A DNA stretch of 64,000 nucleotides, from the NCBI RefSeq assembly GCF_036227225.1, contig NZ_CP109444.1, forward strand, positions 3,887,501 to 3,951,500, read 5' to 3'. The translations under genes and the position numbers were made by a program. Below the pieces are notes generated by a model. It saw only the letters and a list, made by a program, of their open reading frames with translations, was not told the origin of the DNA and did not search any database. Of the stretch, positions 5,999 through 58,600 are shown piece after piece (the stretch's first letter is position 1; every line of letters starts with the position of its first letter). This DNA comes from Streptomyces sp. NBC_01478. GTDB lineage: Bacteria; Actinomycetota; Actinomycetes; Streptomycetales; Streptomycetaceae.

Positions 5999-6067
5999 GG
6001 CGTGCCTCCCGACGGCGTTTCGGAACTGCCATGGCCAGCGTGCGTCCGGCGCCCCGCGGCGGACCAT

Positions 6068-7169: not shown

Positions 7170-7180
7170 GGGCGGTCGTG

Positions 7181-7216
7181 GGGCCGCACGGCCGCTGGGG
7201 CAGGGCCGCATGGCCC
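7181..7216. promoter_or_regulatory. Tandem DevR/OsdR-like boxes upstream of pflB
   Basis: GGGCCGCACGGCCG (7181-7194, one mismatch) and GGGCCGCATGGCCC (7203-7216, perfect half-sites inside the longer palindrome CAGGGCC-gcat-GGCCCTG). Centres are 22 bp apart; the nearer box ends 104 bases before the pflB ATG. Confidence 0.65.
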
Positions 7217-7319
7217 TGCCCCCGGACTCCGGTCGGCACTCCCCTCCGGCACGGCCGCTGACCAGGATCAGAAGCGGAAGGCGCACTCGCGCGGGAACGA
7301 GCACGAGAGGGAACCGGCG

Positions 7320-26506: not shown

Positions 26507-26604
26507 ACCACATCTTCGCAGGTCAGGCCGGTCAGAACGTTTCCCCAGGTCAAAGACCTGCACAGGTCGGGCGGGTGGGACTCCAACCCACGGCCGACGG
26601 ATTA
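26507..26604. repeat. Degenerate tRNA-half/att-like repeat, copy A
   Basis: Contains ttcgcaggtca (26515 region) and, at about 26567-26604, tcgggcgggtgggactccaa continuing cccacggccgacggatta. This matches the minus-strand 3' half of the CAT-anticodon tRNA found in copies at 55.06 and 58.93 kb, with substitutions in the T loop. The conserved flank tttgaggatcttggcgg is absent here. Probably an old attachment-site remnant. The surrounding 26417-26680 interval has no gene. Confidence 0.45.
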
Positions 26605-41000: not shown

Positions 41001-42572
41001 AACATCAGCGACCCGGAGCACCCGCACAGAATCGGCATCGCCCCCGGACGAGGTGCCGAGGAGGTCTACGCAGTCGCCGTCGCGCCGGACGGACGCACTC
41101 TCGCCGTCGCGTACAGCGGCAACGAGGTCGTCCTGTGGGACATCCGGGAGCTGACAACCACCAACAACCAACGCCAGATGTCGGTCATCCGCGCCCACAC
41201 CCGTCCCGTGCACGGGCTGGCCTTCAGCCCGGACAGCCTCACTCTCGCAACCGCGTCCGCCGACCACACCGCCCTGCTCTGGAATGTCACCAACCAAGCC
41301 CGCCCCCGGCGCCTGGCCGTCCTCAACGGTCACACCGCCCCGGTCAACTCAGTCGCCTTCACCCCGGACGGCCGCACCGTGGTAACCGGCAGCGACGACG
41401 GTACGGCCGCCCTTTGGGACGCCACTGAACAGGTACTCCCCCACCCCACGGCCGCCCTCAGCGCCCCCGACGGCCGTGTGCTGGGTGTTGTCCTCCCAGC
41501 CGGCGCACCCGCCCTGGCGGCCACACGGGACGGCGCCGGACATCACATCGTTCTGTGGGACGTCACCGAGCCCGACCGGCGGCGCCGCCTCGCCTCCATC
41601 ACGGCAACCCAACCCCTCTCGGTCGCCTTCAGTCCAGACGGTAAACGGATGGCCGTCGTCGACTACGAATCCGCGAAGGTGGTGCTCTACGAACTCACCG
41701 ATCCGACCAACCCGCAGCACACATCGACCCTCACCAGCGACCACGGCCGGGTGACCTCGGCGGTCTACGGACCCGACGGCCGCACCCTGGCGACCACGAC
41801 GGAGGGACCCCTGGTCAAGGACAGCAACTTTGACGGACCCGTCATCGACGCCGACAAGTCCGCCACCATCCTCTGGGACGTCGCCCGCCCCACCCGCCCT
41901 CAGCGCGCCGCAGACATCCCCGCTGGACTGAACGGGTACGTCGTCTTCAGTCCGGATCAACGCGCCCTTTTCTCGGCCGCCGATGGCGAAGCAGCCATCC
42001 TGTGGGACGTGCGCAACCTGGCGAAGCCTCGCCGACTGGGCAGCCTCAGTGCATCCGGGGGCACCTTCGCGGGCAATCTCGCTGCGGCCTTCACTCCGGA
42101 CGGAAAGATGCTCGCCCTGGCCCGCGGCGACCGCCAGGCCGCCGTCCTGTACGACATCAGCGAGCCAAGCCGGCCCAGGGAGGTGGCGAGCCTCGCCGGC
42201 CACGCCGACTCCCCTTGGTCCTTGGCCTTCGGCGCCCACGGCCACCTGCTCGCTACCGCGGCGAACGACGGAACCATGATCCTCTGGGACGTCACCGTCC
42301 CCTCCACCCCACGTCAACTCACCACCGTCACCGGACCGACGACTGGCTTTTTCGGGCACCTGGCCTTCTCCCCGGACACTCGCACCCTTGCCAACGTCGA
42401 AACCGACTACGACCAGCCCCGAACAGGGTTCCTCTGGGACATCACGCCCATCACACGGTCCCTTACGGACCCCACCATCCGCGCCTGCACCCTCGTACAC
42501 CGCGGTCTCAACCGCGGTGAGTGGAAAAGAGCCACCGCCGGCCTGCCCTACCAGCGGACGTGCCCCAACTGA
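38001..42572 (+). CDS. Caspase-like protease / nSTAND NTPase / 14-WD40 fusion protein
   Basis: 1523 residues. Residues 15-260: C14 caspase-like domain with the dyad His in VVHYVGHG (H99) and Cys in VVLDCCYSGRA (C155). Residues 285-730: nSTAND NTPase starting CPYKGLAAFETADSPWFFGR, Walker A GASGSGKS (329-336), Walker B VVIVVDQFEE (414-423), then a helical winged region. Near residues 740-765 a TM helix (TAVAVVLCVLVAVAASLGAL). From about 830 to the end, 14 WD40 repeats (LLWDT, ILWDV, IMWDI ... FLWDI), enough for two propellers. Expected logic: the propeller senses a ligand, STAND oligomerises, caspase cleaves targets, giving cell suicide or defence. ATG 38001 follows GGGGAG; GTG 38022 is an alternative. 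Confidence 0.93.
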   Translation: MTGGRPPVSDGTPRWSDIPGARVLLMGTGRHAPGSSLSDVPAVAGTLADLAQAYVERCGIPSHAVHTSLDPATPLEMGDAIAAAAEQATGLLVVHYVGHGLLSDEGVLHLATRSTDPRPTRLPHTSLPYATVRHCLRQYLNGGPHRRLVVVLDCCYSGRATEGLDGMDEVMPLADISGAYVIVSAGRDELALAPEGARHTAFSGALLRLLTAGDPDGPAEITLDHAFRHLQRELPAAGFPRPRHLTEGRTGEFVVAANPAYRPASSAPPSPGGGNHSGALAADICPYKGLAAFETADSPWFFGRESLTRTLTDALARSHDDGRVLAVLGASGSGKSSLLRAGLLPVLSRGELCVAGSATWPRVLLTPTAEPLAALAAALSRLTGVPAPRLAEILADDPLRLPAALRAGGGTTPVVIVVDQFEEVFTLGKSAGLREAFVRALRAAAHGDEHGPAALVVLGVRADFYAECMAVPELVPSLREQPVVVGPMSTTELRNAVEKPAARAGFTLEPGLVDVLLGDLGASPLAKGRHQRSYEAGRLPLLSHALKTAWQQRTGPTITVAGYKETGRIHGALAATAELAMSRLDEGGRDAARSLLLRLVRIGEGTEATKRRAPRSELLAEVPDPERAAAVLTAFTMEDTRLITMERDSVEIIHETLLHAWPQLRGWIDENRARLRTEQHLTEAAHAWERAGRDPLLLHTGSRLARAEVWAADEPVDSGNPLALEFVRASEHRQRRSARRRRTAVAVVLCVLVAVAASLGALLQSADSQRREAQSQHRTATARGLVFQAESLRATAPDTALRLGIAAQRLGPSDNARASLMTTLLSRHEPDFLTAHTGPVKAVACSDDGRTIATAGADRAVLLWDTTDRAHPRRIARLTGHHAPVRTLVFAPGGTLLATGGEDRTIILWDVSDPSRPRRLTSITGATSTIEAIAVSPDRHTLLSGGAGRFGIMWDITDLDHPRKLATMEGGTYRQVHSVAFTPDGRTAVIDGAGESPCIWNISDPEHPHRIGIAPGRGAEEVYAVAVAPDGRTLAVAYSGNEVVLWDIRELTTTNNQRQMSVIRAHTRPVHGLAFSPDSLTLATASADHTALLWNVTNQARPRRLAVLNGHTAPVNSVAFTPDGRTVVTGSDDGTAALWDATEQVLPHPTAALSAPDGRVLGVVLPAGAPALAATRDGAGHHIVLWDVTEPDRRRRLASITATQPLSVAFSPDGKRMAVVDYESAKVVLYELTDPTNPQHTSTLTSDHGRVTSAVYGPDGRTLATTTEGPLVKDSNFDGPVIDADKSATILWDVARPTRPQRAADIPAGLNGYVVFSPDQRALFSAADGEAAILWDVRNLAKPRRLGSLSASGGTFAGNLAAAFTPDGKMLALARGDRQAAVLYDISEPSRPREVASLAGHADSPWSLAFGAHGHLLATAANDGTMILWDVTVPSTPRQLTTVTGPTTGFFGHLAFSPDTRTLANVETDYDQPRTGFLWDITPITRSLTDPTIRACTLVHRGLNRGEWKRATAGLPYQRTCPN

Positions 42573-42635
42573 TCTGTGTCTGGCCTACCGCGTCGAACTC
42601 CCAGGACTGACCATCCACCCGGATTCCCAACGCAC

Positions 42636-42836
42636 AGGGCCCGCCACCGGCGGCTGCGCGCACTCGAAGAAGGCCGCGAACTGACAGCCGACGGTGCTCT
42701 GGACATGGACCTGTTCCTGGACAAGTGCCCCTACCGCCCAACAAGCGCGTACGTGGCGAGCGACGACCGCCATACCGGTGCGGACAGTGACCGCCGCCGT
42801 ACCTCGTCGACACCTCCGGCCTCGTCGTGCGGGCAG
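42636..42836 (+). pseudogene. VapB antitoxin C-terminus plus VapC start, degraded
   Basis: Reads RHRRLRALEEGRELTADGAL, then DMDLFLDKCPYRPTSAY, the C-terminal pattern of streptomycete VapB antitoxins (compare RRLRALDQTRELVAEGAPDI at 58.04 kb). At 42787 a GTG and, after a one-base shift, LVDTSGLVVRA, the start of a PIN-domain VapC, follow. No further PIN sequence remains; the frame passes directly into sedolisin-like sequence. A scar of at least two deletions. Confidence 0.6.
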
Positions 42837-43256: not shown

Positions 43257-44867
43257 TCAGCCTTGGATGTCAAGACATCGTTCGTCATAGGCACCCGGTG
43301 AGCAGAAGACTCCCACCACCGAGTCGCCAATGGAGAGACTGACGGCGCTGTACTCGTCGCGCCTGACAACAACCGACGTTCCCGGTCGGTATGGCCGGTC
43401 GGGTGCGTTGGAGGACATCACTCGGCCTCTGAAGACGCCCGTGGCCCCTTCCGCCACCCTGCCGGTGACTACACCGCCCCAGGTCGGGGTGTCCACGTCG
43501 TCACACGGAGGCCCGTCGGTGGCGCAGTCCCGGAAGATCCGGAAACGGTAGGTAAATTCGCCCTGCCGCGAGATCTTGAGTGACCCCTGCGCCCAGCCCC
43601 ATGAACCGGCGACCCCCTCCAACCCTGCACCCCTGGTGGGGATTGGCTTCGGCGTGACGCCTGGAGAGCTTCCCAGCCACACACGGGTGCGAGAGGGCGG
43701 GTGCCCGTCCGGGGCCGGATCGGTACCGAAGGCGAGGACCGTGCCGTCGTACTCGGCGACCGTGTCCACCCGCACCGACTGCCCGAAGCCGTCCTTGCCG
43801 CCCGTCACCCTGTTCCAGCGTCGCCCGTCGCCGGAGGACCACATGGCGCCGGTGCTCCTGGCCTCAGTCTCGGCCGACCCCACGGCAAGGTATCCGCCGG
43901 GCACTATGACCACATGGTCGATGAATCGGCGATCGCCTTCCGTACCACCGAGGCTTCCGGCCTTACGCCAGCCTGAACCGCCAGAGACGTTCCTGATCCA
44001 GGCCTCAGGGGACCGCGCCGTCGCACCGGCGGACGCTAGGGGCCCCGTCAGGACGACGGAGTCCGACGGTCCGGCGGCGGCCGCCCGCAAAGGGAGTTGT
44101 GCCCGGAGTCCGGTCGCTGTGCGCCACTTCGTGCCGTCCGGGCTCTCGATGACGAAGGACGCTGAGGGGCCCCACGGATCCTCGCACTTCGCCCACACGG
44201 TGAAACCACGCTCGTCAGCGATGACCCCCACCTCAGGTTCCTGGTCCTGCCATTGCGGACAGGCCACGTTGTGTGGCGCACCGAACGGATCCTTGTTCGC
44301 GGAGACCCACACCCGCAGGCTCCGGCCCCGCTTGCGTTCCGTGGCCTGCACGAACGGCCCGCCGTTGTGGCCCACCACGACAGTGCCGCGCGGGCCCTGG
44401 GCCGCGGCCAGCACGACATCGGAGGAGACCCCCTCGGGCAGGTACTCAACAGCGCCCCACCGCCCCCTTCCGCGGTAGCGGGTGACCGCCGGGGAGTCAT
44501 CACCGTCACGCAGCACCTTGCCCCCCGCAATCACCTCTCCGTTGTACGCGGTCAGGGAACCGACCGACATGGTTCCCCCCGGCAACCGGGAAACCCGCCA
44601 GTGGATTCCGTCAACCGAGCGGTACATCTCTGATCCGCCGCCCTGCGTGCGCCCCTCGAACAGAAATCCGTCCTTCGAAGAGACGACTGTTTCAGCGGTC
44701 AGCCCGAAGAAAACAGAGGGGAGGTCGGCAAGGGGAATCTGCTGCCAGTTCACTGCGACGGAATCGGGACGGGGCTTGTCGTCACTTCCTCCGCCCTGGC
44801 ACGCAGAGAGCAGTATCGCCACGCAGAGCAGGCACACAAGCCACCGAGGACTCCAGGCAAGGGGCAT
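43257..44867 (-). CDS. Secreted lipoprotein of unknown function
   Basis: 536 residues. Signal peptide (SPRWLVCLLCVAILLSAC) with lipobox LLSAC, so a diacylglycerol-anchored exported protein. The body reads as repeated beta-strand units (GSEMYRSVDGIHWRVSRLPG; ASFVIESPDGTKWRTATGLR; GAMWSSGDGRRWNRVTGG), the look of a BNR/sialidase-like or photosystem-assembly-type beta-propeller, followed by a C-terminal beta domain (GSLKISRQGEFTYRFRIFRD). No catalytic motif recognised. Divergent from the Lon-like operon across 299 bases, so it may be co-regulated with that system. Confidence 0.8.
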   Translation of the reverse strand: MPLAWSPRWLVCLLCVAILLSACQGGGSDDKPRPDSVAVNWQQIPLADLPSVFFGLTAETVVSSKDGFLFEGRTQGGGSEMYRSVDGIHWRVSRLPGGTMSVGSLTAYNGEVIAGGKVLRDGDDSPAVTRYRGRGRWGAVEYLPEGVSSDVVLAAAQGPRGTVVVGHNGGPFVQATERKRGRSLRVWVSANKDPFGAPHNVACPQWQDQEPEVGVIADERGFTVWAKCEDPWGPSASFVIESPDGTKWRTATGLRAQLPLRAAAAGPSDSVVLTGPLASAGATARSPEAWIRNVSGGSGWRKAGSLGGTEGDRRFIDHVVIVPGGYLAVGSAETEARSTGAMWSSGDGRRWNRVTGGKDGFGQSVRVDTVAEYDGTVLAFGTDPAPDGHPPSRTRVWLGSSPGVTPKPIPTRGAGLEGVAGSWGWAQGSLKISRQGEFTYRFRIFRDCATDGPPCDDVDTPTWGGVVTGRVAEGATGVFRGRVMSSNAPDRPYRPGTSVVVRRDEYSAVSLSIGDSVVGVFCSPGAYDERCLDIQG

Positions 44868-45166: not shown

Positions 45167-48100
45167 GTGGCTGTGGAACGCCCGCAAACTCCCGAGGTAC
45201 GCGACCTGCTGCGTCGGCTGCCCGTCGGCGCGAGCGCGACCAATCTGCATTCCTGGCTCACCGGCGCGGACCAGCCCTTGTGGGCTTTACTGACCGAGTG
45301 CGTCGCTGCGGATGACGAGGAGACGCTGCGCCTGCTCATGGAGGGGCAGACGCCCCTGCACGACGTCCTCGACGAGGCACCGGCCTGGCTCGGGCTGAGC
45401 GAGCCCGTGGACGCTCCCTTCGTCGAGGACGAGTCGGCTCCGGCGCGCGCGTTACGCGCCTACGCCGCGCTCGGGCTCGCCCTGGTCGGGGCCCGCGCGA
45501 CCGCCGAGGAGCGGCTCCGTACGGGAACGTCCTGGCTCCTGCGCAGCGGCGCCGCGGCATCAACGGCCCCAGCGACGACTCTGTGGGTCCCGGAGCCGGA
45601 ACTACGCCATGGAGAACGGCTGAGCGGACTCCTCACCAGCGAGTCCCTCTCCGCCTCCGTCAGCGGACACCTCTCCCTCATGCTCCTCGCACTCGACGGA
45701 GGACTGCCGAAACCCCTGCGCGGGCCCCATCTGACGGTACTCGCCGACCGCGGTGACGACGGGCCGGGGGCACGCTTCAGACTCCAACTGGACCTGGTGC
45801 GCGGACTGCCGGCCAGTCTCCTGCCGGATCCGCGCTGCATGACCTCGTTTCTCGGCGACGAAGGATTTCGCCGCTCTCTCACCGACGCCTGGGCGACCGC
45901 CAGGCCGGCGAAGCTGAAGGGCACCGTCCTCTGGTCGCTGCGTGACGGTGACGGACCCGTCGACCACGTGAGCGGTTCGTCCTTCGGCGCGGCCTTCGCC
46001 GTACTCCTCACGGATCTCGGCAGAACCAGGACCGGGGTCCGGGGACCGCTCCGGCTTCGTAGGACCAACCCGAGCACGGCCGTGGTCGGCGCTGTGTCCG
46101 CGGCGAACCCCCGAGTCGTCGAGTCCGTTACCGGATACGACAACAAGCTCAGTGTGCTGAAGGCCCAGAACCGGGTCGTCGTACCGAAAAGGGACGAGGA
46201 GCAAGCTCGGGCGGCCAATCAACACGGAGCGGTCATCGTCGGTGTGGTCACAGTGGAGGAGGCCGCGAAGGCGGCACGGCGTTTGGACGTCAGGGCGACA
46301 TCGCGCCTGGTGGCCACCACGCTGGCCCTGTGCCTCACCATCTCCCTCACGGCGTGGTACTCGGCCAGAGACGAGAGCCAGCGCAACAGCGACAAGGCGG
46401 TCGCCGCAGGGCTGGCCGCGAAAGCGGTCAAACTCAGCGCCACCGAACCGCGCACGGCCGGTCTGCTGGCGCTCGCCGGGTACCAGATCGACAGCGGGAA
46501 CGAAGACGCCAAGGAAGCCATGCAGGAGGTCCTGGAGACCAACCGCAACACCGTCCGCAGTTGGGTGGCCGACAAGACCGCCGTCGAGGCCCTCGCAGTG
46601 GACGACACCGGCCGCCGGGCGTACACCTCGGGCATCGACGACGCCATCCGCGTCTGGGACACCCGGTCCGGGCGGAAACTCGCCGAGGTCAGGGGGCGGG
46701 CCGCCGAACTCGTCAGGAACACCGAATCCGGCACGCTCGCCGCGCATGACGGCAGGAACCTGAGATTCTTCGACGCGTCGGGCGACATCCCGAAGCCGAT
46801 GGGCACGCTGAAGGCACCGCCCTGCGTGGGAGAGTTCAGCGAGATCGTCAGGATGGCCTTCACCTCGCACAGCGCCGCGCTCACCGCAGTATGGAACGAC
46901 GGCAGCATGACGAGCGTCGATCCTGTCAGTCTCACGGTGACATCGTGCGTGCACCTCAAGGACATCGCAGGGCAGCAGATCGCCGGGCAACTCGCACCGA
47001 ACCGGCCGGTGCTGAGCGCGGACGTCGTGCCCCCGGGCGCCAGCCTCGCCAACGGGGCGGACGAGGCAGTCCTCCTTCTCACCACGAACGACGTGGTGAG
47101 TGTGAATCTCCGGACGCAGAAGGTGTCGCGGGTCGTGCCGGCTGCGGACGTGCCCCGTAACGCCTCTCTGGTGCGTGCGTCGGAGGATGTGGTGACACTG
47201 GCCACCGAGGGCGGCGTCCTGGCCTGGGACCGCAAGCAGAAGAGCCGGATCGCCTACCCCTTGGGCGGTCTGTCCACCCGGCCCAAGGGGCTGCAGCAGG
47301 ACGGCGACCAGGTGGTGATCGCTGGAGCGAGCGGGACTGCGGTGATTCCCGTGCGCTCCTCTACCGACAGCGCCGCCGCTCCCTTGTCCGTGCCCAGCGG
47401 CGGGCGCTCCGTAGCCGCGGTGCGTGCGAGTGACGGAACGGTGATCGCGGCCGGGGACGGCGCACGCGTCACCGTGCTCGCCAACACATCCGTCCAGCGG
47501 GCGCTCCCCCCGGCCAAACCCTCCACGGGTGAGGCTTTCGGCCCTGGGCACCGGCTGCTGCTCTCCGACTACTTCATGTCCAACGACTCCTACGGCGCCT
47601 ACACGATCAACGTCGACTCGACGCCTGACTGGACCAGCCCTGCGGGCTCCTCGTACAAGACTGTGGTCGACTACCCTGCCTCGGCGTCGTACATCAACTC
47701 CCTGGCCGTGTCGGACAAGTTCGTCGGGGCCGCCGGTCTGGCCGGGGGGCTCGGAGCCGTGACGGTGTGGAAGAAGGACGGCACCTTCCTCCAGCAGATG
47801 TTGATGTCTCCTCAAGAGGACCGGAAGCGCAAGTCGACCGACCGCATCGTCACCCAGGTCGGTTTCGTCCCGGAGCCCGGCCTCATGGTGGCGCGGCACG
47901 TCTCCGGAGCGGTCGGCATCTGGTCGACCAGGAACTGGGACCGCTTGGGCACGATCTCCCTTCGCCCCGGCACGACAGCCATGGCGCTCCACGGACGCAC
48001 CGGGTTCTTCATCGAGGGCGAAGCACAGGCCGCCCGACTCGTCGAGGTGGATCTCGTCACCCGCAAGAAACTGCGCTCGATCCCCGCTCCGGAAGTGACC

Positions 48101-48589
48101 CGACTGTCGCTCTCGGCGGACGGATCCCGGCTCCTGACCCTCACCTGGGACGGCAACACCATCGGACTCCTGGACAGCAGGAAGCTGACTCCGTTGGCCA
48201 AGCCGCTACAACTGCCCACCGGCGAGTTCGTCGCCGACGCCGAGATCTCTCCGGACGGCCGACTGGTAGCCACCGCGCTGGGGGACCAAGTCCTCGTCCA
48301 CAACCTGACCACCGGTCGCCAGACCATGCCCGCGCTGCGCGACATGAACGGCAATGATGTGGTGTCCCTGGCCTGGTCACCCGACGGCGCCTATCTCGCC
48401 GGAGGCTCGCTGCCCCCCGTGAGGGAGACCAGGGGACCCGGCCCAGTCGACATCTGGAAGATGACCGAGGGATCCCTCAGGAAGCGGATGTGCGACTGGA
48501 CGGACGGCGGCCTCTCGCGGGAAGACTGGAAGAAGTACGTCGCCCACTCGGTGGCCTTCATCGACCTCTGCAAGGGTGTCACCAAATGA
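45167..48589 (+). CDS. Lon-like (S16-fold) domain / TM / beta-propeller protein
   Basis: 1140 residues. Residues ~150-370 resemble the Lon protease fold: HVSGSSFGAAFAVLLTDLG aligns with the Lon serine loop (GPSAG; here S272 in the Ser position), then VRGPLRLR, VVGAVSAAN, GYDNKLSVLKAQNRVVVPKR and VIVGVVTVEEAAKAAR, parallel to Lon's GGLKEKLLAA, vIPkeN and vxVxxleEaL. The usual catalytic Lys position appears to be Asp325, with Lys327 two residues on, so activity is uncertain. A TM helix (LVATTLALCLTISLTAWYSA, ~381-400) is followed by a helical segment seen before WD40 propellers (AAGLAAKAVKLSATEPRTAG) and about 700 residues of degenerate WD40/propeller repeats. GTG start; ATGA overlap with the next gene. 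Confidence 0.7.
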   Translation: MAVERPQTPEVRDLLRRLPVGASATNLHSWLTGADQPLWALLTECVAADDEETLRLLMEGQTPLHDVLDEAPAWLGLSEPVDAPFVEDESAPARALRAYAALGLALVGARATAEERLRTGTSWLLRSGAAASTAPATTLWVPEPELRHGERLSGLLTSESLSASVSGHLSLMLLALDGGLPKPLRGPHLTVLADRGDDGPGARFRLQLDLVRGLPASLLPDPRCMTSFLGDEGFRRSLTDAWATARPAKLKGTVLWSLRDGDGPVDHVSGSSFGAAFAVLLTDLGRTRTGVRGPLRLRRTNPSTAVVGAVSAANPRVVESVTGYDNKLSVLKAQNRVVVPKRDEEQARAANQHGAVIVGVVTVEEAAKAARRLDVRATSRLVATTLALCLTISLTAWYSARDESQRNSDKAVAAGLAAKAVKLSATEPRTAGLLALAGYQIDSGNEDAKEAMQEVLETNRNTVRSWVADKTAVEALAVDDTGRRAYTSGIDDAIRVWDTRSGRKLAEVRGRAAELVRNTESGTLAAHDGRNLRFFDASGDIPKPMGTLKAPPCVGEFSEIVRMAFTSHSAALTAVWNDGSMTSVDPVSLTVTSCVHLKDIAGQQIAGQLAPNRPVLSADVVPPGASLANGADEAVLLLTTNDVVSVNLRTQKVSRVVPAADVPRNASLVRASEDVVTLATEGGVLAWDRKQKSRIAYPLGGLSTRPKGLQQDGDQVVIAGASGTAVIPVRSSTDSAAAPLSVPSGGRSVAAVRASDGTVIAAGDGARVTVLANTSVQRALPPAKPSTGEAFGPGHRLLLSDYFMSNDSYGAYTINVDSTPDWTSPAGSSYKTVVDYPASASYINSLAVSDKFVGAAGLAGGLGAVTVWKKDGTFLQQMLMSPQEDRKRKSTDRIVTQVGFVPEPGLMVARHVSGAVGIWSTRNWDRLGTISLRPGTTAMALHGRTGFFIEGEAQAARLVEVDLVTRKKLRSIPAPEVTRLSLSADGSRLLTLTWDGNTIGLLDSRKLTPLAKPLQLPTGEFVADAEISPDGRLVATALGDQVLVHNLTTGRQTMPALRDMNGNDVVSLAWSPDGAYLAGGSLPPVRETRGPGPVDIWKMTEGSLRKRMCDWTDGGLSREDWKKYVAHSVAFIDLCKGVTK

Positions 48590-50214
48590 ACCGGATCCGC
48601 GGAGCGGTGAGATGGGCAGCAGTCCTGGCCGCGGGAATGGTTCTGCTCGGGGCGAGTTGCAGTGCGCCGAGTGGGGACGACGCCACGCCGGGCGGAAAGG
48701 CGCCGGGCGCGACCGGCCACGGCACCCCGGTTCTCGCATTCGTCCGGCCGAAGGCACGGGAGATGGTCCTGGCGGACGCGGCAGGCCGGACATGGCGGGG
48801 CGCGCGGCTGAGCGCACCCGCGGACGCTGTCCGCTGGTCACCCGACGCGACCGCGCTGGCGTGGATCGACGCCGAGTACGACAGCCCGGACGGCCGGAAA
48901 CTGCATGTCCTCGACGTCGCCACCGGGCGCGAACGGGCAACGCCCTGCCCCTGCCGGGGCATTGGCTTCCTCGGCGACGACGTGGCCACGGTGACCACGG
49001 ACGGTGACGCGCTCCTGCTCTTCCCACTCCGCGGACAGCCCCGTCGTCTGCCGCTCAGCAGCGCCCAGCCTCCCTACGCCAAGGTCGCCGCCGGCGGTCG
49101 GGACCAAGTGACCGTGGCCAGCCCGCTGCCCGAGTTACAGGCGGGCCGCGGCCAGTACCAACTGGTCGCCGTCGACGGATCGGGCGTCGTGTCGCCGTTC
49201 CGGCCTGCCGGAACCCCCACCTCGTTCCTGGAGGGCCTCCAGTCTCCCGGCGGACAGGACATCGCCTGGAGTTTCTACGACTCCGGAGGTGCCTGCTGGA
49301 ACGTCTCCGGCATCCGCCTCGCGACTTATGGCCGGGAGGGCCGACAGGCACCGGATCGTCCCACCGACGCGGCGATGGTCCGGGCCCTACTGAAGGATCG
49401 TGTCACGGTCCAATCCTTTGCCTGGGCAGGCCAAGGGCTAACAGTGACCTTCGGCCCGCAGGTGAACTGCCAGGTAGCGCAGACGAAGCGCTTCGTCTCG
49501 TACTACTTGAAGGACGGCAGGTGGCACTACATCGGATCAGGAATGCTGGCGGTCGGCTACGGCGCCCGGGGACGCGCGGTACGGCTCCTGGCGCCCCAGC
49601 GGCCGCAGACCCAACCGCCGGAAGAACTCCCCGTGCCGGTCGGGGACCTGGAGTTCACCGACCAGCAGGGCAAACGGCGTGTCATCAGCACAGGGGTGTC
49701 GTCGTTCTCCTTCACGCCTACGGAAAGCACGAGAGCGAACGAACCCAAGACCACGCCCCAGCCTGAGCAGACCGAAGTCGCCCGCACGGACGACCGTGGA
49801 GGTCCCGTCCCGCAGCCACTGCGCGCGCTGGCTCAGCGCATCAGGGATGCTGCGCGAGCCGGCGACGTGTCACTCCTGCGGTCACTGTGCGACCTGTGCG
49901 ATGAGGAGACCCTTGCGGCCCTCCCGACCGCCGCGGGACGCCGCGAGCTGGTACGGCTGTTGAGCAGCCACCCCGGCCGTACCGGGAACGGCATCGTGTT
50001 CCCCGGCCTAGCGGCCCACCACTGCGTCGACGAGCCCGGCCAGGACGTCAGCTGCACCTCCGAACAGATCGAGGACATCGGCCTGTTGGACATTCCGCAG
50101 GAGGACGACGACTCGTACGACGGCACCACGTACGCGCCTGACCTCGACCACAGGCTGCAACTGCGGCTGGGGGCGGGCGGCAAGGCTCTCTGGGTGGGGA
50201 GGTACACACCATGA
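48586..50214 (+). CDS. Probable lipoprotein with beta-propeller-like body
   Basis: 542 residues. Signal peptide RGAVRWAAVLAAGMVLLGAS followed by Cys, an imperfect lipobox. The N-terminal two thirds have propeller-like repeats (ADAVRWSPDATALAWIDAEY; DVATVTTDGDALLLFPLRG; VASPLPELQAGRGQYQLVAV). The C-terminal 120 residues form a distinct region (PVPQPLRALAQRIRDAARAG, DVSLLRSLCDLCDEETLAAL) rich in Cys and acidic residues. ATG 48586 overlaps the preceding stop (ATGA) and its own stop overlaps the nucleotidyltransferase start, so it is translationally coupled on both sides. Likely the extracytoplasmic partner of the system. Confidence 0.8.
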   Translation: MNRIRGAVRWAAVLAAGMVLLGASCSAPSGDDATPGGKAPGATGHGTPVLAFVRPKAREMVLADAAGRTWRGARLSAPADAVRWSPDATALAWIDAEYDSPDGRKLHVLDVATGRERATPCPCRGIGFLGDDVATVTTDGDALLLFPLRGQPRRLPLSSAQPPYAKVAAGGRDQVTVASPLPELQAGRGQYQLVAVDGSGVVSPFRPAGTPTSFLEGLQSPGGQDIAWSFYDSGGACWNVSGIRLATYGREGRQAPDRPTDAAMVRALLKDRVTVQSFAWAGQGLTVTFGPQVNCQVAQTKRFVSYYLKDGRWHYIGSGMLAVGYGARGRAVRLLAPQRPQTQPPEELPVPVGDLEFTDQQGKRRVISTGVSSFSFTPTESTRANEPKTTPQPEQTEVARTDDRGGPVPQPLRALAQRIRDAARAGDVSLLRSLCDLCDEETLAALPTAAGRRELVRLLSSHPGRTGNGIVFPGLAAHHCVDEPGQDVSCTSEQIEDIGLLDIPQEDDDSYDGTTYAPDLDHRLQLRLGAGGKALWVGRYTP

Positions 50215-51347
50215 CCTGCACGGAGGATGCCGGAGGTCCGCACTCCGAGTGCTCCGGCAACCACGGCACGGAACAGCGTGCTCCGGCCGGCCCGGTGATG
50301 GTCGGAGACATGGTCGACGGGGAACGTGTCAGCGGATTCGGATACGCGCCACCCCCGGCGCCCATGTTGCCCAGCTCGCACAACGACCGCCTGCTGACGG
50401 AGAGCGACCGCGGCGAGGCCGTGCCTCCGCGGCGCCTCGTCCCCGCGTCCAGGGCGCCGGGCCCGTACGACGAGCGGTTGCCCCACCAAAGGCTCCCGCA
50501 GCACTGCGTAGTGCCCGCCGCCTGCGGCTTCCCGTCCCTCCCGGCAGCCGTGAACGACCTTCTGACGACCGTGTCCTCGCCCTGGGCACGTGTCGTCGAC
50601 CCCATCGCCACGACAGTGCGCACGGCCGGACACGAAGTCTGGCTGAGCGGCGGAGCTCCCCGGGAGCTCCTGTCCGGTCGTGGGCCCGAGGCGGTGCGCG
50701 ATCTGGATCTGACGGGCACCGCGCCGGCGGGCCGCTTCGCGGAGCTGACCCGTCAGGCGCTGGACGAGGACGGCGAGACCTACGAACTCCGCATCCCCGT
50801 GAGCCCTGACACCCTGGTCTGCTCCGTACTCGGCAGCGATCAGTCGGCGCCCTTGGTCGAGTACCGCGGTCTGGGCCTCGGCGGTTTCGAGTTCCCTGCC
50901 ACCGGCACCGATCTCGTCGCGGACAGCCGGCAACGGGACTTCACGGTCAACAGCCTCCTCTACGACTTCAAGCGCCACCTGGTCATCGACGCGAGCGAAC
51001 GCGGCCTGAAGGACCTGGCGGAACCGGGGCGAGCGCTGGTGCCCGTCGACACCTCGCCCGATCCTCTGGTCCAGGCCTCCACGGCCCTGCGAGCCGTGAA
51101 ATTCCTCGTTCGGTGGGAGACGGACGGCCCGGCGAACATCCGCGAGTTGCGCGCGTGGTCGCTCGGGTTCCCCGACGATCTGGCCGACCGCGTCCGCGCA
51201 CGAGGGCCACACATCTGGGGCCAACTGCGCACGCTGCACGACGAGTGCGTGGACGGCTTGCCGGAGGACCGCCAGACAGCCGCCGGGAGCATGCTCGGGC
51301 AAGGCGTGGAGAAGCTGTTGAAGGCACTGCGGCAGGAAGCAGAGTGA
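50211..51347 (+). CDS. Class II nucleotidyltransferase (CCA-adding/poly(A) polymerase head-like)
   Basis: 378 residues. The catalytic head (about 115-300) shows the class II NTase pattern: GHEVWLSGGAPRELLSGRGP, then VRDLDL with the metal-binding D164/D166, and SRQRDFTVNSLLYDF followed by VIDASERGLKDLA, as in CCA-adding enzymes (GGxVRD, DxD, RRDFTINAL, D..G..DL). The neck/body/tail tRNA-binding domains are replaced by only about 90 residues, and a Pro-rich 100-residue N-terminus is added. It is therefore not a standard tRNA CCA enzyme; nucleotide or RNA modification as a signal or toxin is plausible. ATGA overlap upstream, GTGA overlap downstream. Confidence 0.8.
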   Translation: MTCTEDAGGPHSECSGNHGTEQRAPAGPVMVGDMVDGERVSGFGYAPPPAPMLPSSHNDRLLTESDRGEAVPPRRLVPASRAPGPYDERLPHQRLPQHCVVPAACGFPSLPAAVNDLLTTVSSPWARVVDPIATTVRTAGHEVWLSGGAPRELLSGRGPEAVRDLDLTGTAPAGRFAELTRQALDEDGETYELRIPVSPDTLVCSVLGSDQSAPLVEYRGLGLGGFEFPATGTDLVADSRQRDFTVNSLLYDFKRHLVIDASERGLKDLAEPGRALVPVDTSPDPLVQASTALRAVKFLVRWETDGPANIRELRAWSLGFPDDLADRVRARGPHIWGQLRTLHDECVDGLPEDRQTAAGSMLGQGVEKLLKALRQEAE

Positions 51348-52669
51348 ACGGCTCCGCGTCGGCTCGGCACCGGCCTCTCGCACGCTGGGTCGCTCACACC
51401 ACCGTCTCCAGTTCCGGGACGCACCTCGTCACGGGACCGGTGAACGACGGTGCGGAGCGGACCGACGCCCGAGTGCTCCCGCTGTTCGAGAACGGGGCGT
51501 GGCGCAGGACAAGCGTGCTCGCGAGCCGGGAGGGCGCCTCAGTGGCCCGCGTTCTGGCCCTTCACCACCCGGTACTCGGCATGACCTACGTCGAGTTGGA
51601 CGACCAGGGCAGGCCCCTGCAGGTGAGCCCGGAAGGCACGGAACTGATCGCCCGGATGGAGACGGACTGGAACGCTCCGGCAATGGGACTGGATCTCCTG
51701 GGCATCCTGGCCGGGGAAAGCCCGGACCTCCGCTACTTTCTGCTGCACCGGCTCGACATGGAGACCGATCCGCCTCCGGTGCTCTTCCACACGCTTCCCT
51801 GGGCCGCGTTGGACACGGTCGCGGAGAACGTTCTGACCCTGCTCGACGGGACGCCCTCCGTCGAGCCCCCCGTTCACGAACTGCGTCACTGGTTCGCCCC
51901 CGCGGTGACCAGGGTCGCCGGTCCCCTCGCGGTTCTGGAACGCGGGATGCGGGAGGGCCGTGACCCCGCAGTCCTCCGCCATGAGGCCGTCTCCCTGATG
52001 ACAGGCCTGCTGGCGGCCCGAGCCGATCGGATTCCTGGTTCGACAGCCCACTTACTCGGTCATCTGGTGGAGCGGCTGAGCACGCAGGACGCGCTGCTGG
52101 GACACACCGCCCGGGTGATCAGATTCCGTCTGCGCCCCAGCTCCGGAGCCCGCCACCAGCCTTCCCTGACTCTCCGGTTGGAGTCGGCGCTGCCGGCCGC
52201 TGCGCGGACGGCCGGAACCTCTCACGAGCGAACCGTCCGGGACGGCCCGTTCGAAGCAGCGGTGCAGCAGACTTCCGGGGGCCGATTGAAGGTGACGTTG
52301 ACCATGCCGGCTCCCACGCGTGCCGTCGGGGGCGCCTGGGCCGTTCCGGACGGTCTCGTCGCACCGCTCGTCCTTCATGCGGGAAACACGAAACCGCGTC
52401 GCTTCTGGGTCGCTCTGCGTGGCACAGAGGAACACGCACAAGGCAACGTGACCCTGCGCACCCCGCCGGAGCGCTTCCAACTGGTGGCAGACGAGCCCGC
52501 CGTGCCGTTCGCGGCTCTCCGGCCCGTCCCGCCAGCGGAGTTGGTGCCTTCGCTGCGTGCTTCCTCCGTGGCGACTTTGCGCCTGTGGAAGCAGGCATCG
52601 GAGGCTCTCCCACCTGACCATGCGGTCCCCGTGGCCCTCAGGCTCCACCGGGAGGAGCTCAGCCGCTGA
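51344..52669 (+). CDS. Hypothetical protein of the NTase-SLATT operon
   Basis: 441 residues, no signal peptide or TM segment, not recognised. Visible: an N-terminal beta-rich part (YVELDDQGRPLQVSPEGTEL), a central helical part (ETDWNAPAMGLDLLGILAGE; HLLGHLVERLSTQDALLGHT) and a C-terminal part with RFRLRPSSGARHQPSLTLRL and VVPDGLVAPLVLHAG-like strands. The GTG start at 51344 overlaps the NTase stop (GTGA), so it is made in fixed ratio to the NTase and probably binds it. 43 bases separate it from the SLATT gene. Confidence 0.75.
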   Translation: MNGSASARHRPLARWVAHTTVSSSGTHLVTGPVNDGAERTDARVLPLFENGAWRRTSVLASREGASVARVLALHHPVLGMTYVELDDQGRPLQVSPEGTELIARMETDWNAPAMGLDLLGILAGESPDLRYFLLHRLDMETDPPPVLFHTLPWAALDTVAENVLTLLDGTPSVEPPVHELRHWFAPAVTRVAGPLAVLERGMREGRDPAVLRHEAVSLMTGLLAARADRIPGSTAHLLGHLVERLSTQDALLGHTARVIRFRLRPSSGARHQPSLTLRLESALPAAARTAGTSHERTVRDGPFEAAVQQTSGGRLKVTLTMPAPTRAVGGAWAVPDGLVAPLVLHAGNTKPRRFWVALRGTEEHAQGNVTLRTPPERFQLVADEPAVPFAALRPVPPAELVPSLRASSVATLRLWKQASEALPPDHAVPVALRLHREELSR

Positions 52670-52712
52670 CTCCGGACCTGGCCGGTGGCTACCGATGACA
52701 AGGAGGCACACA

Positions 52713-53279
52713 GTGGCAGAGAGCTCCCAGGACAGTGCGCGAGCCCGGCGGTCAGCGATAGTCGACGAGCTCCGCAGGCTGGAGGAAAGCGCCATGTACA
52801 GCGCCCAAATGCAGTTCGAAACTGCGAAGTACTGGCGCGGAGTGCATCTGATGATGGGCATTCCCACTAGCCTGCTGGCCGCTGTCGCCGGTACGACCGC
52901 GCTGGTGGAGTCGACGGGACGCATCGCCGCCGGGATACTCGCGCTGGTCTCGGCCGGCCTCGGCGCCGTTATGACCACCGTGAACGCACCCCAGCGGATG
53001 GCCCATGCCACGACCTGCGCGAACACCTACCTGGAGGTACAGACGGCCGCCCGCCAAACCCGTGCCGTTGATCTTCCGTCGATGCCCATAGCCGACGCAC
53101 GAGCCACCCTGGCAGAGTTGACCGCGCGCCGTGACGAACAGAACAGAGCTGCGGATCCACCGACCCGGCGCGCGTACGGACGGGCCCAAGCAAATATCAG
53201 GTCGGGGGGGCAGACGTACGTGGTGGATGATGAAGCAGTGGCGCACCCCGGTGCGACCGGACCCAGCACATCTGGCTGA
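52713..53279 (+). CDS. SLATT-domain two-TM protein
   Basis: 188 residues. The SLATT pattern is visible: an N-terminal helix (RSAIVDELRRLEESAMYSAQ), MQFETAKYWRGVHLMMGIPT leading into TM1 (PTSLLAAVAGTTALV), a short turn, TM2 (GRIAAGILALVSAGLGAVMT) and a conserved post-TM helix (AHATTCANTYLEVQTAARQT). SLATT proteins are predicted pore-forming effectors linked to SMODS nucleotidyltransferases and SLOG proteins in conflict systems. GTG 52713 has AGGAGG six bases upstream. As last gene of an operon with a nucleotidyltransferase it is the probable effector. Confidence 0.8.
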   Translation: MAESSQDSARARRSAIVDELRRLEESAMYSAQMQFETAKYWRGVHLMMGIPTSLLAAVAGTTALVESTGRIAAGILALVSAGLGAVMTTVNAPQRMAHATTCANTYLEVQTAARQTRAVDLPSMPIADARATLAELTARRDEQNRAADPPTRRAYGRAQANIRSGGQTYVVDDEAVAHPGATGPSTSG

Positions 53280-53936: not shown

Positions 53937-54275
53937 CTAGCCAAGGACGTAGGTCTCATCACCGAAGTCAGCGACGATCTTCAGCTTGCCGCCGAGCGCC
54001 TTGACGTAGGCAGCCAGGGTGTCGACCTCGCTGCGCTCCAGTTGGCCCTTCTCGATACGCGAGACGCGAGCCTGAGTGACGCCCATGGCCGCGGCAACCT
54101 GAACTTGTGTGGTGTGCTGCCGCTTCCGCAACTCGGCGAGCCGGTGGACACGGGACGCGAGGACCAACGCCTGCGCCCCCTTCTGGATCTGGTCCTTCTC
54201 AGCATCAGTGAAGGAGAAGTCCTCGGCCAGATCTTCCCAGGAGACGGCCTGCGGGTCCTTGAGGTGATCAGTCAT
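53937..54275 (-). CDS. higA: HigA-like antitoxin (XRE helix-turn-helix)
   Basis: 112 residues. The C-terminal XRE-type HTH is VHRLAELRKRQHTTQVQVAA, then MGVTQARVSRIEKGQ, ending in a strand (GGKLKIVADFGDETYVLG) typical of HigA-type antitoxins. The N-terminal 45 residues are helical and acidic and would contact the toxin. ATG 54275 overlaps the toxin stop by 4 bases, so toxin precedes antitoxin, the HigBA order. Expected to neutralise the toxin and repress the operon through the palindrome at 54688-54702. Confidence 0.88.
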   Translation of the reverse strand: MTDHLKDPQAVSWEDLAEDFSFTDAEKDQIQKGAQALVLASRVHRLAELRKRQHTTQVQVAAAMGVTQARVSRIEKGQLERSEVDTLAAYVKALGGKLKIVADFGDETYVLG

Positions 54276-54649
54276 CGTTCCCCGTCCTCTCCATCGATTC
54301 GCTTCAGATGCTCTGCATACGCCTGCTCCGCCTGGGGCACCGCGACGCGGTACCAACCGGACCAGTTGCCCGCCTTGTCACCGCCGACCAGGATCACGGC
54401 CTGGCGGTCCGGGTCGAACACGAACAACAAGCGCACTTCCGTGGCCCCCGCCGAACCGGGGCGGAGTTCCTTCAGGTTGGGCAGCGCCGAGCCTTTGATC
54501 GTGTCCACCAGAGGCCGGCCCAACGCAGGACCTTCCTCCTGAAGGGCGGTGACAGCCTGGCTGACCTGAATCAGAGTGTCGCGGTCAGTGCGGCGCAGAC
54601 CGTGCAGCCACGAAAGAGCCGGCTCGACCACGACAATCTTCCAAGCCAT
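54272..54649 (-). CDS. higB: HigB/RelE-type (Gp49-like) toxin
   Basis: 125 residues. RelE-superfamily pattern: helical N-terminus with ALSWLHGLRRTDRDTLIQVS, then PLVDTIKGSALPNLKELRPG, EVRLLFVFDPDRQAVILVGG and DKAGNWSGWYRVAVPQAEQA (the K-W/R-x5-Y ending seen in phage Gp49-like toxins). Predicted ribosome-dependent mRNA endonuclease. GATGGGGG precedes ATG 54649. Intact, unlike the VapBC pairs around it, so it could stabilise the island by addiction. Confidence 0.85.
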   Translation of the reverse strand: MAWKIVVVEPALSWLHGLRRTDRDTLIQVSQAVTALQEEGPALGRPLVDTIKGSALPNLKELRPGSAGATEVRLLFVFDPDRQAVILVGGDKAGNWSGWYRVAVPQAEQAYAEHLKRIDGEDGER

Positions 54650-54702: not shown

Positions 54703-55063
54703 ATAGACGGCACGGATCGCGTTCACCTCGGCGGACATCCGTTGCTCAGCCTCGCCACCGAACCGGTCGGGACCCACCAGCACCGCGTCACACCGACAGA
54801 GGGAAGCGACCCCCAGTCAACTGATCGCAGCTCACGAAACCTTCAATGACACCCACGCGATCAGGAACGACCAGGGATGGCAGTACGCCGACCACCGGGC
54901 CTGGGTGCCGGTCGACTCCGGCAATGTCACAGCCTCACAAGCGTCACCCTGGACGTAGGCAAAGCAGGATCCACTGCACCACGCGCAGCGTTCGCTGCAC
55001 GCCACACACTCTCGGAAAACCATGTTTTCGCAGGTCAGAAGGTTTCTTCCCGAGTAGCGAAGG
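54703..55063. other. Gene-free stretch before repeat copy C
   Basis: No supported gene. A short plus-strand frame reads QLIAAHETFNDTHAIRNDQG followed by WQYADHRAWVPVDS and then stops near 54958; it has no start with a ribosome site and no family I recognise, so it is probably debris. The last 40 bases (ttttcgcaggtcagaaggtt) belong to the att-like repeat. Confidence 0.5.
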
Positions 55064-55200
55064 TGGGGCGGGTGGGACTCGAACCCACGGCCGACGGATT
55101 ATGAGTCCATTGAGGATCTTGGCGGGCCTTGTCGATCCATGCTCATCTTGGTCCTTTTCCCAGTTCAGGCAGGTTTTGGTGCCTCTGTTCCTCTGCCCTT
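55026..55200. repeat. att-like repeat with tRNA 3' half, copy C
   Basis: Minus strand 55108-55064 reads ggactcataatccgtcggcc, then gtgggttcgagtcccacccg and cccca: a CTCATAA anticodon loop (CAT), variable loop, T arm and acceptor 3' strand of a tRNA, but no 5' half. Instead the flank attgaggatcttggcgggcc then ttgtcgatcc follows (55109-55138), shared with copies B and D. This is what one end of an element integrated in a tRNA gene looks like. Upstream (ttcgcaggtca) is also shared with A and D. Confidence 0.65.
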
Positions 55201-55333
55201 GTCAGTCTTTTCGACGACACCGAAGTTCTGGAACAGGTCGGCCAGGAAACCCTTTCCGTGCTGTCAGTGGTCTCTGTTAGCTTCAGGCGCTCGTGTGATC
55301 CACGAGCATCAAGCGCTCACAGGGGAGGGCCAC

Positions 55334-57484
55334 TTGACCAGGTTCACAAGGACAGGCAGACGCAGACGCACGGTGGTGGGGAGCTGTGCGGCGGCGCTGT
55401 TGGTCACGGCTGCCGGGACGGCGTACGCGGTGGACAACCTGCCGCCGAATCAGCCGCTTGTCCAAGACCTCCAGTCGGGAGGCAAGGCATGCGCGACCGG
55501 TGACGACACACCATACGTTTCGACGCCGCCCAGGCTCAGTGCAGTGCTGTACGACCCGGAGGAGGACAACCAGCCCTCCGAATCCAGCCCGCTCAGTGGC
55601 GAGTTCGAAGCCTGGTGGACGGACGCGGCCGGAGTGAAACAGCAGCGTACCTACACCTCCATCACTCTTTCCTCGGGGTCGCGCCAGTACTGGACGATGC
55701 CGAACGACATCCCGGCGAACACCGTCGTCTCCTGGCATGTCCGCGCGAACGACGGCAAGGCGACCTCCACGTGGAGCGACGAGGGCGACGGCTCGGTCTG
55801 CTCCTTCGTGTACGACGACGTGAGCCCGGAGAAGGCGACGATCACCTCTCCCGAATACCCCAACCCGGAGGACGTGTTCTGGGTGGACGGAGTGGGCGTC
55901 TACGGCCACTTCACCATGGACTCGCCTTCCGACGACGTGGTGTCGTACACGTACGGCTTCACGGGCGGCCCTTACGGCACCGTCTCCGCGGAGCGGCCGG
56001 GCGCGGCCGTGACCATTCCGTACCTGCCGCTCTCCGCGGGACCCAAGTCGCTGACGGTCCGCGCGATCGACCGGTCGGGCCGAAGCAGCGGGGAGTCGCG
56101 TTACGACTTCAACGTGCAGGCCGGCCGCGCTCCCGTCGCCCGCTGGAAGCTGGACGACCCGGCGGACTCCGGCTCGGCCGCCGCCGAGACCGGCACCGCC
56201 GCCCGTGCCGGGACCGGCGTGACCTTCGGCGGCCCGGCGCCCACCGGCACCACGGCCACCACCACGGTCGGCCTCGACGGCAGCGACCACGCCTTTCTGA
56301 CCCCGGACGCCCCGGCGACCGACATCCGTAAGACCTTCGCGGTGAGCGCGTGGGTACGGCCCGCCGAAACGGGCCGGAACATGACCGTCGTCAGCCAGGA
56401 TGCCGACGGGGCACCCGGCTTCGACCTCGGGCTGCGCCACGAGGACTCCGGGCCCGCCTGGTCGTTCGCGATCGGCGGCGCGCAGGTGTCCGGCGGCGCC
56501 CCCGAGACCGGCGAGTGGGCCCATCTGCTGGGGCTGTACGACGCCGAGACCGGAAAGGCGCGGCTGTACGTCAACGGCCACGAGGCCGGGACCGCGGCCG
56601 ACGCGACTCCCGCCGAGGCGGCCGGCGCCTTCCAGATCGGGCGCGCCCTCGGTGCTGCCGACTATGGGGACCAGTGGCACGGGGACATCGGTGACGTACA
56701 GGTTCACGACCGGGTCGTGGTGCCGGACGAGGTAGCCGAACTGGCCTACCGCAAGCCAACGTTGCTCGGCCACTGGTCGCTGGAGAACGCGACGGACGGT
56801 GTGAGCCCCGCGCAGTCGGGCGGCGCGCCGCTGCGGCTCGGCGCGGGGGCTTCGATCTACCGGGGCTCCGACAGTTCCTGTATCCCGGAGATCGACCCGG
56901 ACTGCACCTACGTGCCGCCGCCACTCGTCGGTGACGGGCATCTGCTGCTGGACGGCGAGAGCGGGTACGCCGCTGCCGACGGGCCCGTCGTGGACACCGG
57001 GGACAGCTTCACTCTCGGCGTCGTCGTACGCCTCGCGGACTCCGAGCCCGCCCACCCGATGACCGTGCTCTCGCAGGCAGGCGAGCACACCGACGCCTTC
57101 AAGGTGCGCTACGAGCCGTCCACGCACACCTGGCAACTGGTGATGCCGGAGAAGGACGAGGCCGGAGCCCCCGAGAAGGTGGTGTCCCAGATCGTGGGCG
57201 CGGACGGAGGCGAGGGCCAAGGCCATCGCCTCGCCGTGGTCTACGACGACGCCACCGACACGATCAAGCTCTACGTCGACGGCTACACCAACGCCCAGGC
57301 GACCGCGAGCCTCCCCAACGGCTGGCACAGCACCGGTGCCCTCCAGATCGGCCGGGCCAGGTCCGGTGACGGCTGGGGCGAGTACCTGCATGGCGACGTG
57401 GACGAGGTACAGGCCTACTCCGGCGCGCTGAGGGACGGCGACGTCTCGGGCCTGGGGTCGGGTACGGATCCTTGTCTGTGCTGA
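55334..57484 (+). CDS. Secreted protein with two LamG-like domains
   Basis: 716 residues from TTG 55334, chosen because GGGGAGGG lies just upstream and the protein then begins with a basic stretch and signal peptide (RRRRTVVGSCAAALLVTAAG, cleavage near AYA). Residues ~30-260 are Ig/fibronectin-like (VVSWHVRANDGKATSTWSDE). Two concanavalin/LamG jellyrolls follow (KTFAVSAWVRPAETGRNMTV ... WHGDIGDVQVHDRVV; DSFTLGVVVRLADSEPAHPM ... LHGDVDEVQAYSGAL). Exported adhesin or carbohydrate-binding protein is likely. The end (GTDPCLC) is abrupt and larger relatives often continue, so it may be a truncated version. It sits between att-like copies C and D. Confidence 0.85.
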   Translation: MTRFTRTGRRRRTVVGSCAAALLVTAAGTAYAVDNLPPNQPLVQDLQSGGKACATGDDTPYVSTPPRLSAVLYDPEEDNQPSESSPLSGEFEAWWTDAAGVKQQRTYTSITLSSGSRQYWTMPNDIPANTVVSWHVRANDGKATSTWSDEGDGSVCSFVYDDVSPEKATITSPEYPNPEDVFWVDGVGVYGHFTMDSPSDDVVSYTYGFTGGPYGTVSAERPGAAVTIPYLPLSAGPKSLTVRAIDRSGRSSGESRYDFNVQAGRAPVARWKLDDPADSGSAAAETGTAARAGTGVTFGGPAPTGTTATTTVGLDGSDHAFLTPDAPATDIRKTFAVSAWVRPAETGRNMTVVSQDADGAPGFDLGLRHEDSGPAWSFAIGGAQVSGGAPETGEWAHLLGLYDAETGKARLYVNGHEAGTAADATPAEAAGAFQIGRALGAADYGDQWHGDIGDVQVHDRVVVPDEVAELAYRKPTLLGHWSLENATDGVSPAQSGGAPLRLGAGASIYRGSDSSCIPEIDPDCTYVPPPLVGDGHLLLDGESGYAAADGPVVDTGDSFTLGVVVRLADSEPAHPMTVLSQAGEHTDAFKVRYEPSTHTWQLVMPEKDEAGAPEKVVSQIVGADGGEGQGHRLAVVYDDATDTIKLYVDGYTNAQATASLPNGWHSTGALQIGRARSGDGWGEYLHGDVDEVQAYSGALRDGDVSGLGSGTDPCLC

Positions 57485-58010: not shown

Positions 58011-58187
58011 AAAACCGCGCTGCGAGAAGTCACGGCCCGCTACCGACGCCTGCGGGCACTCGACCAGACCCGCGAACTGGTGGCCGAGGGCGCTCCGGAC
58101 ATCGACCTACTGCTGGACAAGAGCGCATACCGCCCCACGAGCGCGGGCGCGACGACCGACGACCGCGGCACCGGGGCACACGGGTGA
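58011..58187 (+). pseudogene. VapB antitoxin C-terminal fragment
   Basis: KTALREVTARYRRLRALDQT, then RELVAEGAPDIDLLLDKSAY and RPTS, ending at TGA 58187. The KxTxxxALREx helix and LLLDKSAYRP tail are those of VapB. The N-terminal DNA-binding part is missing; debris of another gene lies directly before KTALRE. GTGA overlap with the following VapC shows the original operon order. Confidence 0.65.
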
Positions 58188-58600
58188 CCGTCGCCGGCCA
58201 CCTCATCGACACCTCCGCCCTCGCCCGCGTCCTCCTCCGCCAGAACACCGCCCAATGGGACGACACGATCGCAGCCGACCTCGTCGCGATCTGCGACCTC
58301 ACCGAACCGGAAGACCTCTACTCGGCCCGCTCCACTACGGACCGCACCCGCGTGAAGGCGGCCCTCGACGCCCACTACCCCTGGTGCCCCATGCCCGACG
58401 GTGTCTACCGCCGCTCCCGCATCACCCAGGAACAGTTGACCACCAAGGGAGAACACCGCAGCGCAGGCCCCATGAACCTCCTGATGGCCGCAGCCACGGA
58501 AGAAGCGGGACTCCCCCCACCACGACGACCGCGACGACCGCGACTTCGAAACCATCGCCCGCACGATCGACCTCAAGCAGCAGAGCCCGCGCGGCACCGA
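58184..58600 (+). pseudogene. vapC: VapC toxin (PIN domain) with one frameshift
   Basis: GTG 58184 starts VTVAGHLIDTSALARVLLRQ with the first catalytic Asp. DLTEPEDLYSARSTTDRTRV carries the conserved acidic residue and YSAR motif; GEHRSAGPMNLLMAAATEEA the RSxxxxxLL motif. At the run of six C (58512-58517) the frame breaks; removing one C restores HHDDRDDRDFETIAR with the last catalytic Asp. So a single-base insertion (or sequencing error) inactivates the gene. With its antitoxin truncated, loss of the toxin would be required for viability. Confidence 0.7.

Follow-up and report, generated by a model that had tools for sequence, protein, structure and literature searches.

A recurrent five-gene operon of Streptomyces combining a Lon-like membrane protein, a class II nucleotidyltransferase head and a SLATT protein: a candidate conflict system

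Organization and recurrence of the operon

We analysed a 64,000-nucleotide stretch of the genome of Streptomyces sp. NBC_01478 (NZ_CP109444.1; G000:C1:3887501-3951500 in our numbering, hereafter the window), a genome assembled as one contig, C1, of 12.1 Mb. The window carries an operon of five plus-strand genes, here called P1 to P5. They encode a Lon-like protein with a transmembrane (TM) helix and a WD40-type propeller (P1, 45167..48589), a predicted exported lipoprotein (P2, 48586..50214), a class II nucleotidyltransferase (NTase) head protein (P3, 50211..51347), a protein of unknown family (P4, 51344..52669) and a SLATT protein (P5, 52713..53279). The divergent gene at 43257-44867 is called P6. 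P1, P3 and P4 constitute a conserved core, to which one subtype adds P2 and P5. The recurring operon is real and apparently undescribed, and none of the matches listed from the open-licence literature describes it. We tentatively read it as a membrane-anchored conflict system of the cell-suicide type, a reading to which we would give a little under an even chance.

An original prediction for this region had described four genes chained by overlaps and followed 43 bases on by a SLATT gene. All of these reading frames are present where it placed them. Adjacent genes overlap by 4 nt at each of the junctions P1/P2, P2/P3 and P3/P4, P4 and P5 are separated by 43 bases, and an AGGAGG ribosome site (52701..52706, plus strand) lies six bases upstream of the P5 GTG. 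In-frame starts giving 4-nt overlaps were present at P2/P3 and P3/P4 in all seven loci examined and at P1/P2 in five of the seven; the gene starts annotated in one further locus (L091, below) differ from the overlap-type ones.

The window proteins were compared by tblastn with 12 stretches, which represent 11 distinct loci including the window's own. Seven of them (the window, L026, L027, L028, L030, L032 and L033) contain the complete set of five genes in one and the same order, and the other four (L029, L034, L035 and L036) hold P1, P3 and P4 with no detectable P2 or SLATT gene. A plasmid search added an eighth five-gene locus, L091. Streptomyces sp. NBC_01717 carries it on a linear plasmid of 799 kb, whose record names the products as a WD40 protein, three hypothetical proteins and a SLATT protein. 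The gene order is identical in 8/8 five-gene loci and the overlap-type junctions recur, an association that exceeds chance. P1, P3 and P4 occur together in all 12 loci, whether these were picked by P3 or by P4: each P3-picked locus holds P4, each P4-picked locus holds P3, and P1 is present throughout. Two of the core-only loci show irregularities. In L034, a 998-aa frame (4643-7639) with hydrophobic C-terminal segments and a sub-threshold pentapeptide-repeat match stops 7 bases upstream of the longest P3 frame; it is possibly an alternative membrane effector in place of SLATT. In L029 (11083-12325), P4 matches in two pieces with no single open frame, reflecting a disrupted gene or a sequencing error.

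The operon is rare and patchy. P4 was found in 6 of 297 genomes of the family, the window's own included, and in 3 of 394 genomes of the class, the same three having clear P3 relatives. The five-gene form was seen only in Streptomyces and in a single sister genus within the family; of the core-only loci, L035 and L036 belong to two different families outside it (f17 and f18). The flanks differ among the seven five-gene loci compared, with two exceptions: the window and L027 share sequence upstream (window ~33.3-35.2 kb), and P6 is common to the window, L026, L027 and L030. The original prediction had named as support a co-occurrence of the five genes in unrelated actinomycetes at differing loci near defence genes. 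Co-occurrence at differing loci was confirmed, but the five-gene form was seen no further than the sister genus, and no consistent defence neighbours were recognised in the flanks, which are discussed below.

Predicted activities of the encoded proteins

P3 (378 aa) matches PF01743 with 33.3 bits (cut-off 23), the PolyA_pol head domain covering residues 144-270 (50640..51020). The alignment places a DLD metal-binding motif at D164/D166 (50700..50708) and the R242-D243 of an RDFT-type motif, which reads QRDFTVN in the window, at 50934..50939. These four residues are unvaried in 22/22 alignment rows and in 12/12 loci. With a profile of 22 relatives, the best solved relative is E. coli poly(A) polymerase (3aqk, E 7.1e-7). 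P3 thus has the head, the DxD and the RD of class II poly(A) polymerase/CCA-type enzymes, and its predicted activity is probably nucleotidyl transfer that builds nucleotide chains. Class II enzymes grip tRNA by a body and tail that follow the head. Only 108 residues follow the head of P3, and therefore most of the tRNA-holding body and tail is missing. As a housekeeping CCA-adding enzyme P3 was rejected, scoring 13.1 bits against tRNA_CCA_actino (cut-off 438.8); the full CCA enzyme of this genome is encoded elsewhere (C1:5945688, 820 bits). The proposal of a CCA/poly(A)-type head with DLD and RDFT-like motifs and no normal tRNA-binding tail therefore stands, as does its placement in class II rather than among SMODS enzymes: neither P1-P4 nor P6 has a PADLOC match at E<=0.1, so the CD-NTase (SMODS-type) enzyme that defines CBASS was not found. 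That P3 might align full length with CCA enzymes, a possibility the original prediction had itself raised, is not the case.

The kinship of P3 with a poly(A) polymerase would also suit a toxin-like module in which P3 stops translation by tailing or capping tRNA or mRNA, SLATT being a second, independent effector. NTase toxins of the MenT3 type do extend tRNA ends (PMC11541572). The truncated tRNA-holding region argues against such a module, and its strict linkage with a membrane protease is not what toxin-antitoxin loci look like; we regard it as improbable.

P1 (1140 aa) was dissected by Pfam, hydropathy and fold comparison. Its N-terminal 177 residues are mainly helical in the structure model and are followed by a Lon protease domain (residues ~185-373, 45719..46285), an approximately placed TM helix (46304..46363) and a WD40-type propeller region delimited by Pfam stretches (residues 460-1081, 46553..48409). 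Ser272 (45980..45982) aligns with the nucleophile Ser of the Lon GPSAG motif and Lys327 (46145..46147) with the Lys of GGxxxK. Both are unvaried in 29/29 P1 sequences and in 5/5 distant ones, in register with Lon, although these 34 aligned sequences are not all independent. P1 has the proteolytic fold and the Ser-Lys dyad of the Lon/S16 peptidase domain and is a putative peptidase. No AAA+ domain was found in the chain by Pfam at E<=0.1, which separates P1 from the ATP-dependent Lon proteases. The S16-like fold and the propeller that had been proposed for P1 are thus both present. The proposed TM helix is detected in 28 relatives, from which its position was taken, but the window copy falls below the hydropathy cut-off of 1.6. 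Lys and Arg are in excess on the N-terminal side of the helix in 25 of these 28 relatives, with three ties (the window copy was not scored); for this reason the propeller may lie outside the membrane and sense there.

Relatives of P1 also occur in other company. CATRA caspase-dependent systems were reportedly described by Burroughs and Aravind in 2020. The N-terminal profile of P1 matches 9 of 296 class genomes, and in the six loci with a clear relative (L051-L056) neither P3 nor P4 was found among the called frames. A CATRA protein lies within ~10 kb of the P1 relative in five of the six (L051, L052, L053, L055 and L056); four of these calls rest on Pfam CATRA-N, CATRA-C and EAD1 and the fifth on a hidden Markov model (HMM) built from those four. 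None was found in L054 or in the weak locus L057. Lon-TM-propeller proteins thus lie near CATRA proteins in other actinobacterial families. The Lon-propeller module therefore has at least two partner sets, namely the NTase and P4, with or without SLATT, and CATRA, which PMC8195603 mentions as a caspase-dependent ternary conflict system. The HMM from the four proteins found no CATRA protein at E<=1e-3 in the window or in L026-L036, so the present operon is not a CATRA system.

That P1 alone, of P1, P3 and P4, accompanies CATRA suits another explanation, proteolytic activation, as does the invariance of the dyad in 34/34 aligned sequences of limited independence. Here the Lon domain would cut SLATT or a SLATT inhibitor, P3 and P4 would modify or gate the protease, and no nucleotide messenger would act on SLATT. 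The retention of the P3 metal-binding residues in all 12 loci and the presence of P3 in every P4 locus speak against this, and we consider it unlikely.

P4 (441 aa), which adjoins P3, has no Pfam, PADLOC or NCBIfam match at E<=0.1. Its structure model reaches a pLDDT of 88.7 and has no Foldseek match in the PDB at E<=0.001. A CATRA-like identity was considered and rejected (hhalign probability 0.1%).

P5 (188 aa) scores 97.8 bits against the NCBIfam model SLATT_4 (NF033632; cut-off 55) and 232.6 bits against the PADLOC 2TM effector PDLC00710. It has two hydrophobic segments, residues 47-65 (1.58) and 71-89 (1.91), above a cut-off of 1.4. With a curated model match and two TM helices, P5 qualifies as a SLATT protein and is predicted to be a pore protein; the two-TM SLATT assignment, which the original prediction had marked for checking, was borne out. 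Among 19 stretches scanned (the window, L026-L036 and L051-L057), SLATT was found in 7/7 five-gene loci and in no other stretch, and it is also present in L091. The SLATT proteins of L028, L032, L033 and L091 are far more conserved than P1-P4, being 65-69% identical to that of the window, compared with only 36-46% for P1-P4. The genome encodes a second SLATT_4 protein (G000:C1:2094543-2095010, L059; 135.6 bits).

P2 (542 aa) is present in 8/8 five-gene loci. Its proposed identity as an exported propeller lipoprotein stays an impression: a single hydrophobic segment lies at the N-terminus with a Cys behind it, and Pfam gives no match at E<=0.1. P6, a divergent predicted lipoprotein on the minus strand (43257..44867), had been suggested as a possible further member. 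A relative lies upstream in the window, L026, L027 and L030, so that it accompanies one group of loci (4/8 five-gene loci); P6 is best described as an optional partner.

Genomic setting

Partial repeats of a tRNA-Met 3' end lie on the minus strand to the left (26564..26604; 41 bases, 95%) and right (55055..55130) of the operon, which is contained in the 28.5 kb between them. Further partial copies lie at window position 58931, C1:3964388 and C1:3977919, making five in one orientation over 71 kb. An intact tRNA-Met(CAT) is located at ~C1:3985212, and one further weak match is far away. From its sequence, the arrangement looks like an island of stacked integrations.

Several neighbours were recorded. 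Between the same two tRNA repeats and upstream of P6, a 1523-aa protein (38001-42572, plus strand) combines an nSTAND1 NTPase (394 bits) with a WD40 propeller; its N-terminal 285 residues look caspase-like. Beside the SLATT gene, a small HTH protein overlaps a RelE/HigB-like small protein (53937-54649, minus strand), probably a toxin-antitoxin pair, both names having been assigned by reading. A 781-aa frame with laminin-G/concanavalin-like domains (55139-57484, plus strand) directly follows the tRNA fragment. A repeat of ~190 bases, 77% identical, occurs on either side of the operon region (42635-42824 and ~58031-58223).

A possible mechanism and comparison with known systems

The original interpretation, in which a class II NTase generates a signal or modifies RNA, the propellers and Lon-like domain sense or process the trigger and SLATT depolarises the membrane, is supported in part, namely for the gene co-occurrence, the class II-like NTase, SLATT and the Lon-like and propeller parts. 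The pathway that we would propose begins outside the membrane, where the P1 propeller and the lipoprotein might sense an event at the envelope, phage adsorption for example. Through the TM helix the signal would reach the Lon domain, which is predicted to be cytosolic and has no ATPase, and this domain would cleave or release P3/P4. With P4 holding it as a substitute for the missing tRNA-binding body, P3 could then extend a primer (protein, RNA or an oligonucleotide), and its product would open the SLATT pore, or loss of the product would un-gate it, so that the membrane is depolarised. Where a subtype has no SLATT, the effector may be the protease itself or some other membrane protein. As a complete chain, from outside sensors through a membrane Lon protease lacking an ATPase to release of P3 with P4 as primer-holder and a polymer that gates SLATT, this proposal is possible and on the whole doubtful.

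Several observations weigh against the proposal. SLATT was found in 0/4 core-only loci; the core therefore seems functional without it, and the NTase need not act directly on SLATT. RadA and ComM, which also have Lon-like domains, are among the fold matches of P1, so the fold by itself is no proof of proteolysis. The orientation of P1 leans on a modest charge bias, and P4 has no assignable activity. Inspection of the flanks by eye, partly aided by Pfam, revealed no recognisable defence genes that accompany the operon consistently. This last point, together with the exported and membrane parts and the multicellular hosts, would fit a Streptomyces operon that serves ordinary signalling in envelope stress or development and plays no part in conflict. 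Such an operon would hardly be expected in so few genomes of the family, once on a plasmid and here among tRNA repeats, and the SLATT and CATRA links suggest conflict; we hold this explanation to be very improbable.

If the proposed pathway is correct, a class II poly(A) polymerase/CCA-type polymerase would join the enzymes that drive SLATT pores, and membrane Lon-propeller proteins, in an operon whose parts databases mostly label as hypothetical or WD40 proteins, would gain a role. S272, K327, D164 and D166 would offer a clean genetic handle.

Among known systems, CBASS with 2TM/SLATT effectors resembles the operon in pairing an NTase gene with a 2TM effector, as the PDLC00710 match of P5 illustrates; the PADLOC 2TM effector models presumably derive from CBASS. 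It differs in that P3 has a poly(A) polymerase/CCA-type head and that the operon adds the Lon-propeller protein, the lipoprotein and P4. Hailong consists of the NTase HalA and the membrane protein HalB. Compared by description only, it likewise places a Pol-beta-superfamily NTase, with a polymer signal possible, beside a membrane protein, and is set apart by the protease, propeller and P4 found here. In Hailong, oligodeoxyadenylate is described as a negative regulator of immune activation (PMC12265719). By such inverse or guard logic, the P3 product would hold SLATT closed in healthy cells until infection or Lon action removes it. The same possibility was raised for SLATT by the authors of DRT10 (PMC12632851). 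Apart from its sign, this logic fits the data equally with the proposed pathway, and we think it quite improbable.

DRT10, comprising a reverse transcriptase, a noncoding RNA and SLATT, is alike in joining a polymerase-type enzyme to a SLATT partner. That partner is required for phage defence and its modulation by DRT10 cDNA is proposed (PMC12632851); P3, however, is a poly(A) polymerase/CCA-type NTase and not a reverse transcriptase. In GAP1-N1/DO-GTPase conflict systems, SLATT genes sometimes accompany nucleotide-related effector domains (PMC7159879). Core components of those systems did not appear in the Pfam, PADLOC and NCBIfam scans, in which no search was aimed at them. Lon proteases and Lon-like (S16) domains, including the C-terminal domain of BrxL in BREX, also rank among the nearest known parallels; P1 differs in having no AAA+ domain detected by Pfam and in carrying the TM helix and WD40-type propeller instead. 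CATRA systems have P1 relatives nearby, but the window and L026-L036 have no CATRA protein and P4 is not CATRA-like. The operon apparently represents a new variant among conflict systems that pair a nucleotide signal with a pore, and it belongs to neither CBASS nor the CATRA systems.

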